Positions 17,849-42,189 of a stretch of 42,189 bases of DNA are shown here, one piece after another; the first letter of the stretch is position 1; each line of letters opens with the position of its first letter. The notes beneath the pieces were generated by a model. That model made no database searches and was not told the origin of the DNA. It was given only the letters and a program-made list of their open reading frames with translations. The stretch lies in assembly GCA_031281945.1 (NCBI GenBank), contig JAITER010000003.1, forward strand, positions 1 to 42,189, given 5' to 3'. The DNA is from Spirochaetaceae bacterium (GTDB taxonomy: Bacteria; Spirochaetota; Spirochaetia; Treponematales; Breznakiellaceae). Position numbers and translations under genes: made by a program.

Positions 17849-17913
17849 GGCCGCTTTTTAAGGAATTTAATTTTACATGGCTTTAACGGCGCATTGTAGA
17901 TATTTTTAATTTT

Positions 17914-18010
17914 GGCGCATTTTCACCCGCCTGCGGCGGGTGAAAACCGGGCTATCCGCTATAATTTGGCCGCTTTAGCGGCCAAATTCCGCTCCTATCC
18001 CTTGCGCTTT
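17914..18010 (+). repeat. Family B repeat (variable-palindrome element), copy 1
   Basis: Framework: GGCGCATTTT, stem-loop 1 (17920-17946, arms TTTTCACCCGCC and GGCGGGTGAAAA), CCGGGCTATCCGCTAT, stem-loop 2 (17963-17988, arms AATTTGGCCGC and GCGGCCAAATT), then CCGCTCCTATCCCTTGCGCTT (18-21 nt tail region, 17989-18009). The same framework with entirely different stems occurs at 35881-36004 and on the minus strand at 30556-30645. It lies just after the PTS gene and may act as its terminator. Confidence 0.8.
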
Positions 18011-18066
18011 CTCTAGCGGCGCCGCTTCCGGCCAACATAGGCGCCGGCTAGCGCCCCGGTTACCGC

Positions 18067-18241
18067 TGGGGGCTCCGCCCCCAAGCCCCCCGCTGGGAGG
18101 CCGAGGCCTCCCAGACCCACCAAAAGTTTGCGGCGCCGCTTTGTTTCAAGCGGGCTTTTCATTGCCGGGCGCGTTTTTCGCGGCGCTACGCCCCGCAAAA
18201 AACGCCGCGCCCGCTTTCCAGCGGCGCCCGGCGGCTTCCGC
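18067..18241 (-). repeat. Family A repeat: extended cap module, left copy
   Basis: TGGGGGCTCCGCCCCCA, then GCTGGGAGGCCGAGG with CCTCCCAGACCCACC, then AAAGTTTGCGGC and a tail CGCTTTGTTTCAAGCGGGC to about 18241. Most of this returns in the same orientation at 18502-18668, so the two form direct repeats of about 150 bp. The cap also appears at 30.46, 30.68, 32.01 and 40.87 kb. Confidence 0.85.
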
Positions 18242-18505: not shown

Positions 18506-18668
18506 GGAGGCCGCAGCCTCCCAGACCCACCGAAAGTTTGCGGCGGCGCTTTGTTTCAAGCGGGCTTTTTCATTGCCGGGCGCGTTTTTCGCGGCGCTAC
18601 GCCCCGCAAAAAACCGCCGCTCCCGCTCCAATTCCGCGTCCGCTTTCCAGCGGCGCCCGGCGGCGGGC
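18502..18668 (-). repeat. Family A repeat: extended cap module, right copy
   Basis: Direct repeat of the module at about 18090-18241, including CTGGGAGGCC, CCTCCCAGACCCACC, AAAGTTTGCGGC and the TTTGTTTCAAGCGGGC tail. It ends some 40 nt before the promoter of the broken peptidase gene. Confidence 0.82.
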
Positions 18669-18707
18669 TTTTTCATCGCGCGCCGCCCTAATAAATTTGA
18701 ATTTTTG

Positions 18708-30449: not shown

Positions 30450-30515
30450 GCTAAAATTTTTGGTGGGTCTGGGAGGCCTGGGCCTCCCAGCGGGGGGGGG
30501 GGGCGGAGCCCCCAG
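30450..30515 (+). repeat. Family A cap module, outer left of the 31-kb locus
   Basis: AAAATTTTTGGTGGGTCTGG, then GGAGGCCTGGGCCTCCCAG, then a run of twelve or so G and CGGAGCCCCCAG. It matches the inner cap at 30682-30745 except for a few bases and the longer G-run. Confidence 0.8.
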
Positions 30516-30555
30516 TTGCAAGCAAGGCGCGAGCCGTTATCGGCCCGTGCGCTTA

Positions 30556-30645
30556 AAGCGCAAGCGATTGGGGATTTGGCCGCTTTAGCGGGCAAATTAT
30601 GCGGAAAGCGCGGTTTTCGCCGCAATGCGGCGAAAATGTGCGCCC
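30556..30645 (-). repeat. Family B repeat (variable-palindrome element), copy 3
   Basis: On the minus strand: GGGCGCACATTTT, stem-loop 1 (arms TTTTCGCCGC and GCGGCGAAAA, 30612-30637), CCGCGCTTTCCGCAT, stem-loop 2 (AATTTGCCCGC against GCGGCCAAATC, one mismatch), then CCCCAATCGCTTGCGCTT. Framework and order agree with copies 1 and 2. It lies between the two left caps of the family A locus. Confidence 0.72.
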
Positions 30646-30681: not shown

Positions 30682-30745
30682 GCAAACTTTCGGTGGGTCT
30701 GGGAGGCCGAGGCCTCCCAGCGGGGGGTTGGGGGCGGAGCCCCCA
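30682..30745 (+). repeat. Family A cap module, inner left terminal repeat of the array
   Basis: GCAAACTTTCGGTGGGTCTG, GGAGGCCGAGGCCTCCCAG, CGGGGGGTTGGGGGCGGAGC and CCCCA. Its reverse complement, with few changes, is at 32010-32073 on the other side of the tandem array, so the array is bounded by inverted repeats of about 64 bp. The extended flank (GGCAATGAAGAACGCC and GTTTGAAACAAAGCGGCGCC) also matches the 18-kb locus. Confidence 0.85.
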
Positions 30746-30769
30746 ACCGCAACCAAAACGCGAGCCGCT

Positions 30770-32009
30770 ATCGGCCCCCGCGCCGCCTGGGTTGGCGGAA
30801 CGCGCTCAAAGTATCGCGCGTACTCGCGCCCAGTGTGGCCGTCCGCTTTCTCTATGGCGGGGGCCTTTATCGGGCCCCACGCTGTGCCGCCTGATACGGC
30901 GGGACGCGCTCAAAGTTTCGCGCACACTCGCTCCCCAGCATGGCCTGTCGCTTTCTCTACGGCGTGGGCTTTTATCTGGCCCCCCGCTGTGCCGCCTGAT
31001 ACGGCGGGACGCGCTCAAAGTTTCGCGCACACTCGCTCCCCAGCGTGGCCTGTCGCTTTCTCTACGGCGTGGGCTTTTATCTGGCCCCCCGCTGAGCCGC
31101 CTGGGTTGGCGGGCCGCGCTCAAAGTATCGCGCGTACTCGCGCCCAGTGTGGCCGTCCGCTTTCTCTATGGCGTGGGCCTTTATCTGGCCCCCCGCTGAG
31201 CCGCCTGGGTTGGCGGGCCGCGCTCAAAGTATCGTGCGCACTCGCGCCCAGCGTGGCCTGTCGCCTTCTCTACGGCGTGGGCTTTTATCTGGCCCCCCGC
31301 TGAGCCGCCTGGGTTGGCGGGCCGCGCTCAAAGTATCGTGCGCACTCGCGCCCAGCGTGGCCGTCCGCATTCTCTGCGGCTGTGGCCGATATCGGGCCCC
31401 CCGCTCTACCGCCTGGGTTGGCGTGCCGCGCTCAAAGTTTCGCGCGCACTCGCGCCCAGCGTGGCCTTTCGCTTTTTCTACGGCTGGGGCCGTTATCTGG
31501 CCCCACGCTGTGCCGCCTGATATGGCTGGCCGCACTCAATGTTTCGCGCGCACTCGCTCCCAGCGGGGGGCCGTCCGCTTTCTCTACGGCGGGGGCTTTT
31601 ATCTGGCCCCCCGCTGAGCCGCCTGGGTTGGCGGCTCAGCGCTCAAAGTATCGCGCGCACTCGCGCCCAGCGTGGCCTGTCGCCTTCTCTGCGGCTGGGG
31701 CCGTTATCTGGCCCCACGCTGTGCCGCCTGATATGGCTGGCCGCACTCAATGTTTCGCGCGCACTCGCTCCCAGCGGGGGGCCGTCCGCTTTTTCTACGG
31801 CGGGGGCTTTTATCGGGCCCCACGCTGGGCCGCCTGGGTTGGATGGCCGCGCTCAAAGTATCGCGCGCACTCGCGCCCAGCGTGGCCGTCCGCTTTCTCT
31901 ACGGCGGGGGCTTTTATCTGGCCCCCCGCTGAGCCGCCTGGGTTGGCGGGCCGCGCTCAAAGTATCGTGCGCACTTGCGCCCAGCGGGGCCGGTCGCCTT
32001 CTCTACGGC
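30770..32009 (+). repeat. Family A tandem array: twelve units of about 104 bp
   Basis: The marker CGCGCTCAAAG (or CGCACTCAATG) recurs at 30802, 30905, 31010, 31115, 31219, 31323, 31427, 31531, 31638, 31742, 31848 and 31952, giving periods of 103-107. A unit runs: CCGCC-TGGGTT-GGCGG small stem, CGCGCTCAAAGTATCGCGCG, ACTCGCGCCCAGCGTGGCC, GTCCGCTTTCTCTACGGC, GGGGGCTTTTATCTGGCCCC, CCGCTGA. Two unit types alternate near 31531-31848, a higher-order repeat of about 211 bp. Because 104 is not a multiple of three, the same DNA is read in all three frames, so the long open frames across it are not protein genes. Confidence 0.93.
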
Positions 32010-32073
32010 TGGGGGCTCCGCCCCCACTCCCCCGCTGGGAGGCCAAGGCCTCCCAGACCCACCGAAAATTTGC
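32010..32073 (-). repeat. Family A cap module, right terminal repeat of the array
   Basis: TGGGGGCTCCGCCCCCACTC, CCCCGCTGGGAGGCCAAGG, CCTCCCAGACCCACCG, AAAATTTGC. It is the inverted partner of the cap at 30682-30745. Confidence 0.85.
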
Positions 32074-32140
32074 GGCGCCGCCCCAGCCCACCGCCGGCCT
32101 GTTTTTAGCCCTATTCCGGCCCGCGCGGGGCCGCTTGCGG

Positions 32141-32190
32141 CGCCGCGCCTAAAGCGCGGTTTTCGCCGCTTTAGCGGCGAAAATGCGCCC
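32141..32190 (-). repeat. Family B-like partial copy
   Basis: On the minus strand GGGCGCATTTT, stem-loop (CGCCGC-TAAA-GCGGCG), AAAACC, then a second stem GCGC-type (CCGCGC-CTAAA-GCGCGG on plus). The start agrees with the family B framework but the tail (CTATCC-TTGCGCTT) is missing. Confidence 0.5.
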
Positions 32191-35880: not shown

Positions 35881-36004
35881 GGGCGCATTTTTCGTTTTTT
35901 TCTTAAAAATACAGAAAAAACGAAAAACCAGGCTATACGCTAAAATTACACATAAATCCGGCAAGCGGATTTATGTGTAATTCCCGCTTCTATCCTTTGC
36001 GCTT
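35881..36004 (+). repeat. Family B repeat (variable-palindrome element), copy 2
   Basis: GGGCGCATTTTT, stem-loop 1 (35888-35927, arms TTTTTCGTTTTTTTCT and AGAAAAAACGAAAAA), CCAGGCTATACGCTAA, stem-loop 2 (35944-35982, arms AATTACACATAAATCCG and CGGATTTATGTGTAATT, perfect 17 bp), CCCGCTTCTATCCTTTGCGCTT region (35983-36004). Conserved linkers match copy 1 at 17914, while neither stem shares sequence with it. Confidence 0.82.
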
Positions 36005-40870: not shown

Positions 40871-40943
40871 GCCGCAAACTTTCGGTGGGTCTGGGAGGCC
40901 AAGGCCTCCCAGGCCCACCGAAAGTTTGCGGCGGGCCTTTTTT
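40871..40943. repeat. Minimal family A element: two caps fused, also a terminator
   Basis: GCCGCAAACTTTCGGTGGG (40871-40889) and its perfect reverse complement CCCACCGAAAGTTTGCGGC (40914-40932) enclose TCTGGGAGGCC-AA-GGCCTCCCAG. The result is one hairpin of about 30 bp followed on the plus strand by CCTTTTTT. It equals a left cap joined to a right cap with no tandem units. The left flank (GGCAATGAAAAAGCCCGCC) also resembles other family A flanks. It sits 5 nt past the stop of the minus-strand surface gene and can end transcription from both sides. Confidence 0.85.
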
Positions 40944-40947
40944 ACCC

Positions 40948-42189
40948 CTAATCCGCGTGTTTAAAGCGGACTACAACTATCCCGCTCCCCCCGGCGCCGC
41001 CATTGCCGTTCCAGCCGCCCTGTCCCCCGTTACCGCTATTGGCCGGGCCGGCGCTTCCGTGGTATGCAGGGTAATTCGGGGCCATATCCGGCGCGGTGGG
41101 GCCGCCCTTGGCGTAAGTTACATTGCTTCCCGTAATGTTACTTGCACGCCCGGCTCCGTTACGGCTTCCGTTAGGATAACCGTAACCGCCCGCGCCGCCA
41201 GCACCGCCGCCGCCAGCAGCGTAATCTCCATCCGCCGAAACATAACCGCCCGCATACCCGTAACTAAACCCGCCGCTTTGGTACGTTCCAGCCTCAGCCG
41301 CTTTAGCCGAACTCCCGCCGCCGCCGCCGGAACCTCCAGCACCGCCGGTCTTTGTAGCGTATTTATTGTCATGACCGCCGCCATAGCCGCCCCCTTTCGC
41401 CAAAAAGTAGGTTGTACTTCCAAGTTTTATGTAAGAATCGCCGCCCTTAGAACCACTATCCCCTTTAGCAGCTTTATTCTCACTCGGTCCATTCCCGCTA
41501 CCGCCGGAGCCGCCCGCGCCAGCCGAAACTTTATAGGCTCCAACCGGGAAAGTGTAACTGTCGTGGCCAACAAAACCGCCGCCCCCGCCGCCGGAAGAAG
41601 GATAACTCGCTCCGCCTCCGCCTCCGCCGCCGCCTATTACAAGGATGCGGGACGCCGCCGCCTGCCTGTAAACTACAAGGTTCGCTTCGGTTGAGCTTGT
41701 AAATGTATGTAGTTCATCCATAGTACCGTCAGAATTTTCGATAAATGAAACCACGCCGCCGTCAGCAAAAACTTTTTTCGCAAAAATCAAAGTGTAAGTT
41801 TTGTTCGCGCCCACGGAATCGGACGCGCTTACCTGCACGGTTTTGGGAGTCGCGTCCGTTTTGGAGGTCCACGAAAGGCTTGTAGGCGATGCGCTCACCG
41901 AGCCTCCCGCCCCAAGCCCGGCGCCATTCGCCGCGGTTATCGTTAGACTTGTAGCAAAATAAGGAACCCGCACCTCCGTAACGTTGCCCGTAGAAAGCGT
42001 TACGGAAACGGCGCCGTTCCCGTAATTGTAGGAAACCGCCGCAAGATTTGTTGAGGCGTTCCCCGCCCGCGCAACCCTTAAAACATAAACCCCGGCGCTC
42101 CCGTCAAAAGTCGTTATCTTAATCAACACTATCTTGCTTTGCGACGTGGTTAGCGAAAATCCCTCGCTAAAACCGTTCTTCTCCGCGTC
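40948..42189 (-). CDS. Glycine-rich surface protein, N-terminus beyond the window
   Basis: The frame is open from the window edge to its stop at 40948 (413 codons seen). The N-terminal visible half has repeated beta-sandwich patterns (SLTITAANGAG, KTVQVSASDSVGANKTYTLIF) like cadherin-like/Big-type surface domains. From about visible residue 180 it becomes glycine-rich: LVIGGGGGGGGASYPSSGGG, SAGAGGSGGSGNG and similar stretches, ending SGIVVVRFKHAD, the usual close of bacterial glycine-rich domains. It is probably an exported, cell-surface or adhesin-type protein. An apparent GTG start at 42129 is internal, because 20 more codons are open upstream. The opposite strand frame (40885-41694) is a shadow. 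Confidence 0.82.
   Translation of the reverse strand, partial: DAEKNGFSEGFSLTTSQSKIVLIKITTFDGSAGVYVLRVARAGNASTNLAAVSYNYGNGAVSVTLSTGNVTEVRVPYFATSLTITAANGAGLGAGGSVSASPTSLSWTSKTDATPKTVQVSASDSVGANKTYTLIFAKKVFADGGVVSFIENSDGTMDELHTFTSSTEANLVVYRQAAASRILVIGGGGGGGGASYPSSGGGGGGFVGHDSYTFPVGAYKVSAGAGGSGGSGNGPSENKAAKGDSGSKGGDSYIKLGSTTYFLAKGGGYGGGHDNKYATKTGGAGGSGGGGGSSAKAAEAGTYQSGGFSYGYAGGYVSADGDYAAGGGGAGGAGGYGYPNGSRNGAGRASNITGSNVTYAKGGPTAPDMAPNYPAYHGSAGPANSGNGGQGGWNGNGGAGGSGIVVVRFKHAD

Follow-up and report, generated by a model that had tools for sequence, protein, structure and literature searches.

The window, that is the whole stretch of 42,189 nucleotides of spirochaete DNA analysed here, carries intact, decayed and truncated copies of a short intergenic repeat in which a conserved framework holds two hypervariable hairpins. 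Copy 1 (17913..18009, plus strand) is intact and lies 3' of a PTS EIICBA gene; it is composed of a helix P1 (GGCGCA with TTGCGC), a hairpin 1 (TTTTCACCCGCC-TGC-GGCGGGTGAAAA), a helix P3 (GGGCTA with TATCCC) and a hairpin 2 (AATTTGGCCGC-TTTA-GCGGCCAAATT). Copy 2 (35881..36004, plus strand), likewise intact, begins 5 nt past the stop codon of flgC and has an AT-rich hairpin 1 (TTTTTCGTTTTTT..AAAAAACGAAAAA) and the hairpin 2 ACACATAAATCCG..CGGATTTATGTGT. Copy 3 (30556..30645, minus strand), which is 76% identical to copy 1, is decayed, with a CA inserted beside hairpin 1, in GCGCACATTTT, and a reduced P3. A truncated copy 4 (about 32150..32190, minus strand) was recognised from its sequence and by comparison with the intact loci L010 and L011; it retains the left boundary GGGCGCAT and hairpin 1 and includes an exact match to GGGCGCATTTT at 32180-32190 (minus strand), and the part from P3 through the right end has been lost between two GCGCTTT repeats. 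When the middle linker was searched in the window with up to three mismatches, only copies 1 and 2 were matched, and shuffled sequences gave no match.

Several other repeats are found in the same window. A tandem array of ten units of ~104 nt (30733-32118), each a chain of short palindromes whose arms vary, is placed between copy 3 and the truncated copy 4. A second, GC-rich palindromic family (GGGGGCTCCGCCCCC...CTGGGAGGCC..GGCCTCCCAGACCCACC), with sites at 18061-18110, 30490-30530, 30690-30750, 32000-32060 and 40886-40957, often runs straight on from the repeat described here, and GGGCGCGTTTTTCGCGGCGCTACGCCCCGCAAAAAAC, present at 18167-18220 and 18578-18640, is possibly distant kin of its left half. 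Between 19718 and 20760, two adjoining segments are repeated about 580 bp apart with 72-98% identity, and the upstream stretch TTTTTGTTGACAAAAGTCAGG is common to positions 18702 and 20999; this suggests that small genes were duplicated together with their promoters.

A three-way junction with two conserved helices

The unit is about 90-125 bp long, and a single strand of it folds into a three-way junction composed of the closing helix P1, the hypervariable hairpin 1, the helix P3, an internal loop and the hypervariable hairpin 2. P1 (GCGCA with TGCGC) closes the element, P3 (GGGCTA with TATCCC, with one C.T mismatch within) closes the second arm, and the internal loop is purine-rich and symmetric, with AGCGGA opposite AGCGGA on the strand used by Rfam (see below). 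The minimum free energy DNA structure of copy 1 is this junction on both strands, with z-scores of -7.1 and -6.0 relative to dinucleotide shuffles; copy 2 folds in the same way (z -7.5 and -8.7), and no shuffle of either copy folded equally well. For the decayed copy 3 the z-scores were -2.0 and -3.4 and the junction was not predicted.

A preliminary description of copies 1 to 3 had treated the conserved linkers as unpaired sequence, a view that has to be corrected, as the linkers are the base-paired helices P1 and P3. P1 and P3 alone were tested with 60 copies from two phyla, aligned gap-free and carrying only stubs of the variable hairpins, with the left anchor of the Bacteroidota rows set without use of pairing. 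In this alignment, 99.0% of the cells of the two helices are paired, compared with at most 64% in slid controls, and 87 two-sided changes were counted versus 23.4 in shuffles. Among 177 spirochaete copies, A-T (83 copies) and T-A (82) are about equally frequent at the inner pair of P3, and at the second pair 142 copies have G-C and 28 have C-G. P1 occurs as GCGCA/TGCGC, GCGTT/AACGC, GCGTG/CACGC, GCATT/AATGC, GCATA/TATGC, GCAAG/CTTGC and GCAAA/TTTGC. The covariation of both helices in two phyla supports selection for structure at fixed positions, one of two alternatives that the preliminary description had offered. The unpaired letters of the linkers are nearly invariant, positions b5-b7, b9 and b11 being the same in 177/177 copies. 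The 178 parsed copies end in (T)GGGCGCAT on the left and TTGCGC on the right. With regard to the features of a MITE, namely terminal inverted repeats with a target-site duplication, P1 constitutes a 5-bp terminal inverted repeat; the right ends run into other repeats, and no target-site duplication is recognisable.

Further copies were sought with pattern searches and with the covariance model RF01705 of the Rfam family Flavo-1, an identity which the preliminary description had missed. Copy 1 matches Flavo-1 at 17941-18012 on the minus strand with 36.3 bits and an E value of 2.7e-6 (gathering score 42). The model gave 29 matches in the genome to which the window belongs, some ten of which exceed the gathering score (42.4-46.3 bits), 19 matches in Salegentibacter, 2 to 17 in five Flavobacteriaceae genomes and none in 14 control genomes. 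Salegentibacter and Bacteroides copies align gap-free with those of the spirochaetes, the linkers and the P3 helix being conserved. In view of the copies above the gathering score and the matches in Bacteroidota, the dispersed element is, by homology, Flavo-1. A literature search by sequence words, or for a Flavobacterium repeat of such kind, retrieved no paper.

The pattern AACCGSGCTWTCCGCTMNAATT, allowing up to two mismatches, has 57 matches in the 2.49-Mb genome, a metagenome-assembled genome (MAG) that GTDB places among Treponema/Spirochaetales MAGs from termite guts, and the reversed control has none; the copies sharing a framework, as first described from the window, are thus real and belong to a large set. 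One congener has two weak matches (at two mismatches) and the other none, both being incomplete MAGs (61% and 70% complete). This excess suggests spread, and it reflects either a recent expansion or a loss in the congeners. Some other members of the bacterial family are also copy-rich, with 44 copies in one genome (G018). A scan of GTDB genomes yielded at least 108 matching stretches; among the matches listed with records, all but one, from Salegentibacter (L194, Flavobacteriaceae), are from termite-gut spirochaete MAGs. The framework also occurs in Bacteroidota including Bacteroides plasmids such as p5482.

Variation and exchange of the hairpins

Hairpin 1 was found in 153 distinct forms, with 1522 Watson-Crick, 5 G.T, 12 A.C and 10 other pairs; pairing is perfect in 119 forms and in none of the shuffles. 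When nearest-neighbour hairpins of equal length were compared, 51 two-sided changes (31 transversion and 20 transition pairs), 5 wobble and 34 mismatch changes were counted; a two-step route via G.U would be biased towards transitions, and the ratio of transversion to transition pairs expected by chance alone is 2:1. As paralogous copies rather than ancestor and descendant are compared, two-step changes could also be concealed by selection against unpaired intermediates. In the MAG Nm470_bin15, the same 39-nt hairpin 2 is present at 17 loci in 13 forms, whose departures are two-sided in 12 cases and one-sided in 3. All four Watson-Crick types occur at one of its pair positions, its loop reads AAA or TTT depending on the copy, and most of these copies differ in the hairpin 1 that accompanies it. 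In the ACACAT family of the genome studied here, two-sided and one-sided departures are equal (five each), which counts against paired change.

Loops in both orientations are not confined to this example. Among hairpins with near-identical stems and different loops, 26 pairs, non-independent and derived from about ten stems, are exact loop inversions, compared with 11.5 +/- 3.2 after permutation, where none of 2000 permutations reached 26. Copies 1 and 3 of the window have the loop of stem 2 in opposite orientations as well. Their second stems (TTTGGCCGCTTTAGCGGCCAAA and TTTGCCCGCTAAAGCGGCCAAA) are recognisably related, so that the initial claim of unrelated stems does not hold for this pair, whereas it stands for stem 2 of copy 2, which belongs to a different family. 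Template switching is expected to leave multiple compensatory changes and inverted loops behind (Monttinen and Loytynoja 2022; PMC8794818). Since the arms mostly change by whole base pairs and near-identical stems carry their loops in either orientation, the data fit a rewriting of the arms in single events by template switching, which the preliminary description had named as an example of its other alternative, the replacement of whole palindromes; there is evidence for each of the two alternatives, and the preliminary interpretation is partly supported.

Whole hairpins are also exchanged between copies, in line with the replacement of entire palindromes that had been suspected at the outset. 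Between L001 and L008, the part composed of P3, hairpin 2 and the second strand of P3 is 98% identical, and their hairpins 1 are unrelated. Conversely, a 33-nt hairpin 1 (TTTTTGGCGTTTTTTTGCAAAAAACGCCAAAAA) is combined with two different hairpin 2 families, and another hairpin 1 (TTTTTGCCGTTTCACGGCAAAAA) with three. L005 and L209 have 95% in common over 200 bp rightward and differ in both hairpins, the flank itself being a repeat module. Some tips of hairpin 2 in Salegentibacter bear another repeated palindrome, GTCACTTCGAGCGGAGTCGAGAAG and variants (L332, L334, L335, L338, L340), as if the hairpin tips accepted insertions.

Loop inversions and whole-pair changes would also be expected if template switching alone kept the palindromes perfect and the element were inert debris, for which selection on structure is unneeded. 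P1 and P3 are short helices split by other hairpins and yet covary across phyla, and the unpaired linker letters are nearly invariant; debris would conserve neither, and we regard this explanation as decidedly unlikely. The data show the family identity, the two conserved helices, the behaviour as a discrete unit, the lack of a preferred gene orientation, the near-perfect pairing of the hairpins and the change of their arms mostly by whole base pairs. The best-supported reading, which we judge to have about an even chance of being correct, is that the element is an intergenic DNA repeat of the Flavo-1 family that is dispersed in the genome, a mobile folded junction whose arms are rewritten by template switching. 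The unit would spread as a non-autonomous mobile element and would have to fold into the junction in order to be propagated, and we infer that for this reason linkers and pairing are conserved and the letters of the hairpins are free. The arms would be kept complementary by template switching between them during replication, which would rewrite both at once and flip the loop, and whole hairpins may be swapped between copies via recombination in the conserved linkers.

DNA or RNA, and the question of mobility

Flavo-1 was described by Weinberg et al. 2010 (PMC2864571) as a motif graded 'probably' RNA, and Rfam classes RF01705 as Gene; sRNA. If it is a small RNA gene, the variation of the hairpins would be ordinary compensatory evolution of a structured RNA, and the conserved purine-rich internal loop agrees with this, as do the C(GNA)G triloops in hairpin 1, of which 33 are on the Rfam strand and 8 on the other (P 5.6e-5), one sign that folding of the Rfam strand is favoured. 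GNA triloops and tandem G.A pairs are highly stable in both DNA and RNA, and the counts of G.T versus A.C pairs in hairpin 1 and hairpin 2 disagree on the folding strand. Against an RNA gene, the share of wobble pairs in hairpin 1 is about 1-2%, transversions exceed transitions among the paired changes, and 57 divergent copies are present in one genome. The copies fall into all four gene-orientation classes (25/23/20/18) without preference. In the transcriptome of F. psychrophilum, Flavo-1 matches are sense or antisense and often lie beyond the transcribed regions, transcription thus being not consistent (PMC9723704). A function as intrinsic terminator was considered and rejected, hairpin 1 being preceded by a T tract and followed by an A tract, on both strands, and gene orientation being random. 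The indifference of the copies to gene orientation, and the fact that they are no terminators, speak for a dispersed hairpin element of DNA more than for an RNA gene; the interpretation of Flavo-1 as an 'sRNA', as published, appears doubtful, and we consider it unlikely.

As to a possible signal in single-stranded DNA, a lagging-strand initiation site or a single-strand promoter was suggested by the site upstream of ardC. In three families of Bacteroides/Phocaeicola plasmids (L310, L311, L314, L382), the element or a remnant of it lies upstream of a gene for an ArdC-like single-stranded DNA-binding protein in the same orientation, and the loops prefer one strand. The three plasmid sites have some flank in common and may be one ancestral site, the chromosomal copies are many and orientation-neutral, and the bias with respect to replication strand as derived from GC skew (44 versus 72 overall) is weak and confounded by C-rich neighbouring repeats, with no clear bias in a complete Flavobacteriaceae genome containing 12 copies. 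Such a signal therefore appears very improbable.

The element behaves as a discrete unit. The 88-bp element of the Bacteroides plasmid p5482 is found again, about 89% identical, in plasmids of the pBUN2 type, where its surroundings are unrelated, and the borders of this alignment are at or adjoining the element ends. In pBACSA01, hairpin 2 has been lost by a deletion between two direct repeats (GCTTTCCGCTGCAA). A pair of filled and empty orthologous sites was not found, the flgC region of ten relatives giving no syntenic right flank and the Bacteroides plasmid sites all being found with the element; in the genome studied here, most copies continue into other palindromic repeats, so that neither a target duplication nor the right-hand end could be pinned down.

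Mobilisation in the manner of REP/BIME elements, by a RAYT transposase (TnpA-REP, HUH Y1), would follow the same general logic of dispersed hairpins and a low-copy transposase. A lead in this direction is the Bacteroidetes subclass 2.6, which is flanked by 'atypical secondary structures' (Quentin 2018; PMC6006769); Y1 genes were sampled here irrespective of subclass. The search for the Y1_Tnp domain covered 20 genomes of spirochaetes and 60 of Flavobacteriaceae. The genome studied here has a single Y1 gene, which is dead (one TGA and two TAA codons), the element is near 2/24 Y1 loci in the spirochaetes and 0/30 in the Flavobacteriaceae, and a terminal GTAG/CGTC tag was not seen in the 178 parsed copies. 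With no linkage in the loci read, RAYT/Y1 mobilisation was rejected as a candidate, and we rate it as improbable; no other mobilising enzyme was found. As separate observations, one termite-gut spirochaete (G046, Cd354_bin11; L299, L301, L305, L307, L309) has about 30 weakly scoring Y1/RAYT-like genes, the flanks of which mostly do not contain the Flavo-1 element in the loci read, and in L308 (G045 C271; 1087-1160 and 2440-2520) a RAYT-like gene lies within long inverted flanks, the left end of which includes TGGGCGCATTTTTTGCC and the right end its rough inverse.

A more far-reaching proposal, which we put forward as a speculation with a small chance of being right, is that Flavo-1 is a structure-defined mobile single-stranded DNA, acted on via the junction linkers, with the letters of the hairpins immaterial and each round of copying able to rewrite a hairpin arm from its partner; the enzyme would be a candidate shape-reading recombinase common to Bacteroidota and Spirochaetota. 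If this is true, the family would continually make new perfect palindromes. Dozens of paralogous hairpins per genome also provide a natural system in which to test whether hairpins evolve in paired, single-step events, a question that concerns the evolution of both RNA and palindromes.

Comparison with known systems

REP/BIME elements resemble the element described here in that they, too, are short extragenic repeats, dispersed in the genome and forming hairpins whose stems vary. They are, however, hairpins of 20-40 bp that carry a GTAG/CGTC tag and have RAYT transposases, whereas the present element is a three-way junction of about 90-125 bp without RAYT linkage in the loci tested. With the hairpins for which template switching was described (PMC8794818), it has the whole-pair changes and inverted loops in common; these were reported there for rRNA and are found here between paralogous copies of one repeat family within one genome. 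The likeness to Flavo-1 (RF01705) comprises hairpin 2, the internal loop, the P3 helix and the linkers. With its 76 nt, the Rfam model is without the closing helix P1 and hairpin 1, both of which are present and covary in both phyla, and the dispersed, orientation-neutral, high-copy behaviour is unlike that of an sRNA gene. Flavo-1 is an abundant Rfam sRNA family without assigned function, and its count among sRNAs may mislead if it is a DNA hairpin repeat. The results presented here extend the structure of RF01705 by the outer helix and hairpin 1 and add high-copy dispersal in a second phylum; the element is an extended, high-copy form of a known but unexplained motif.
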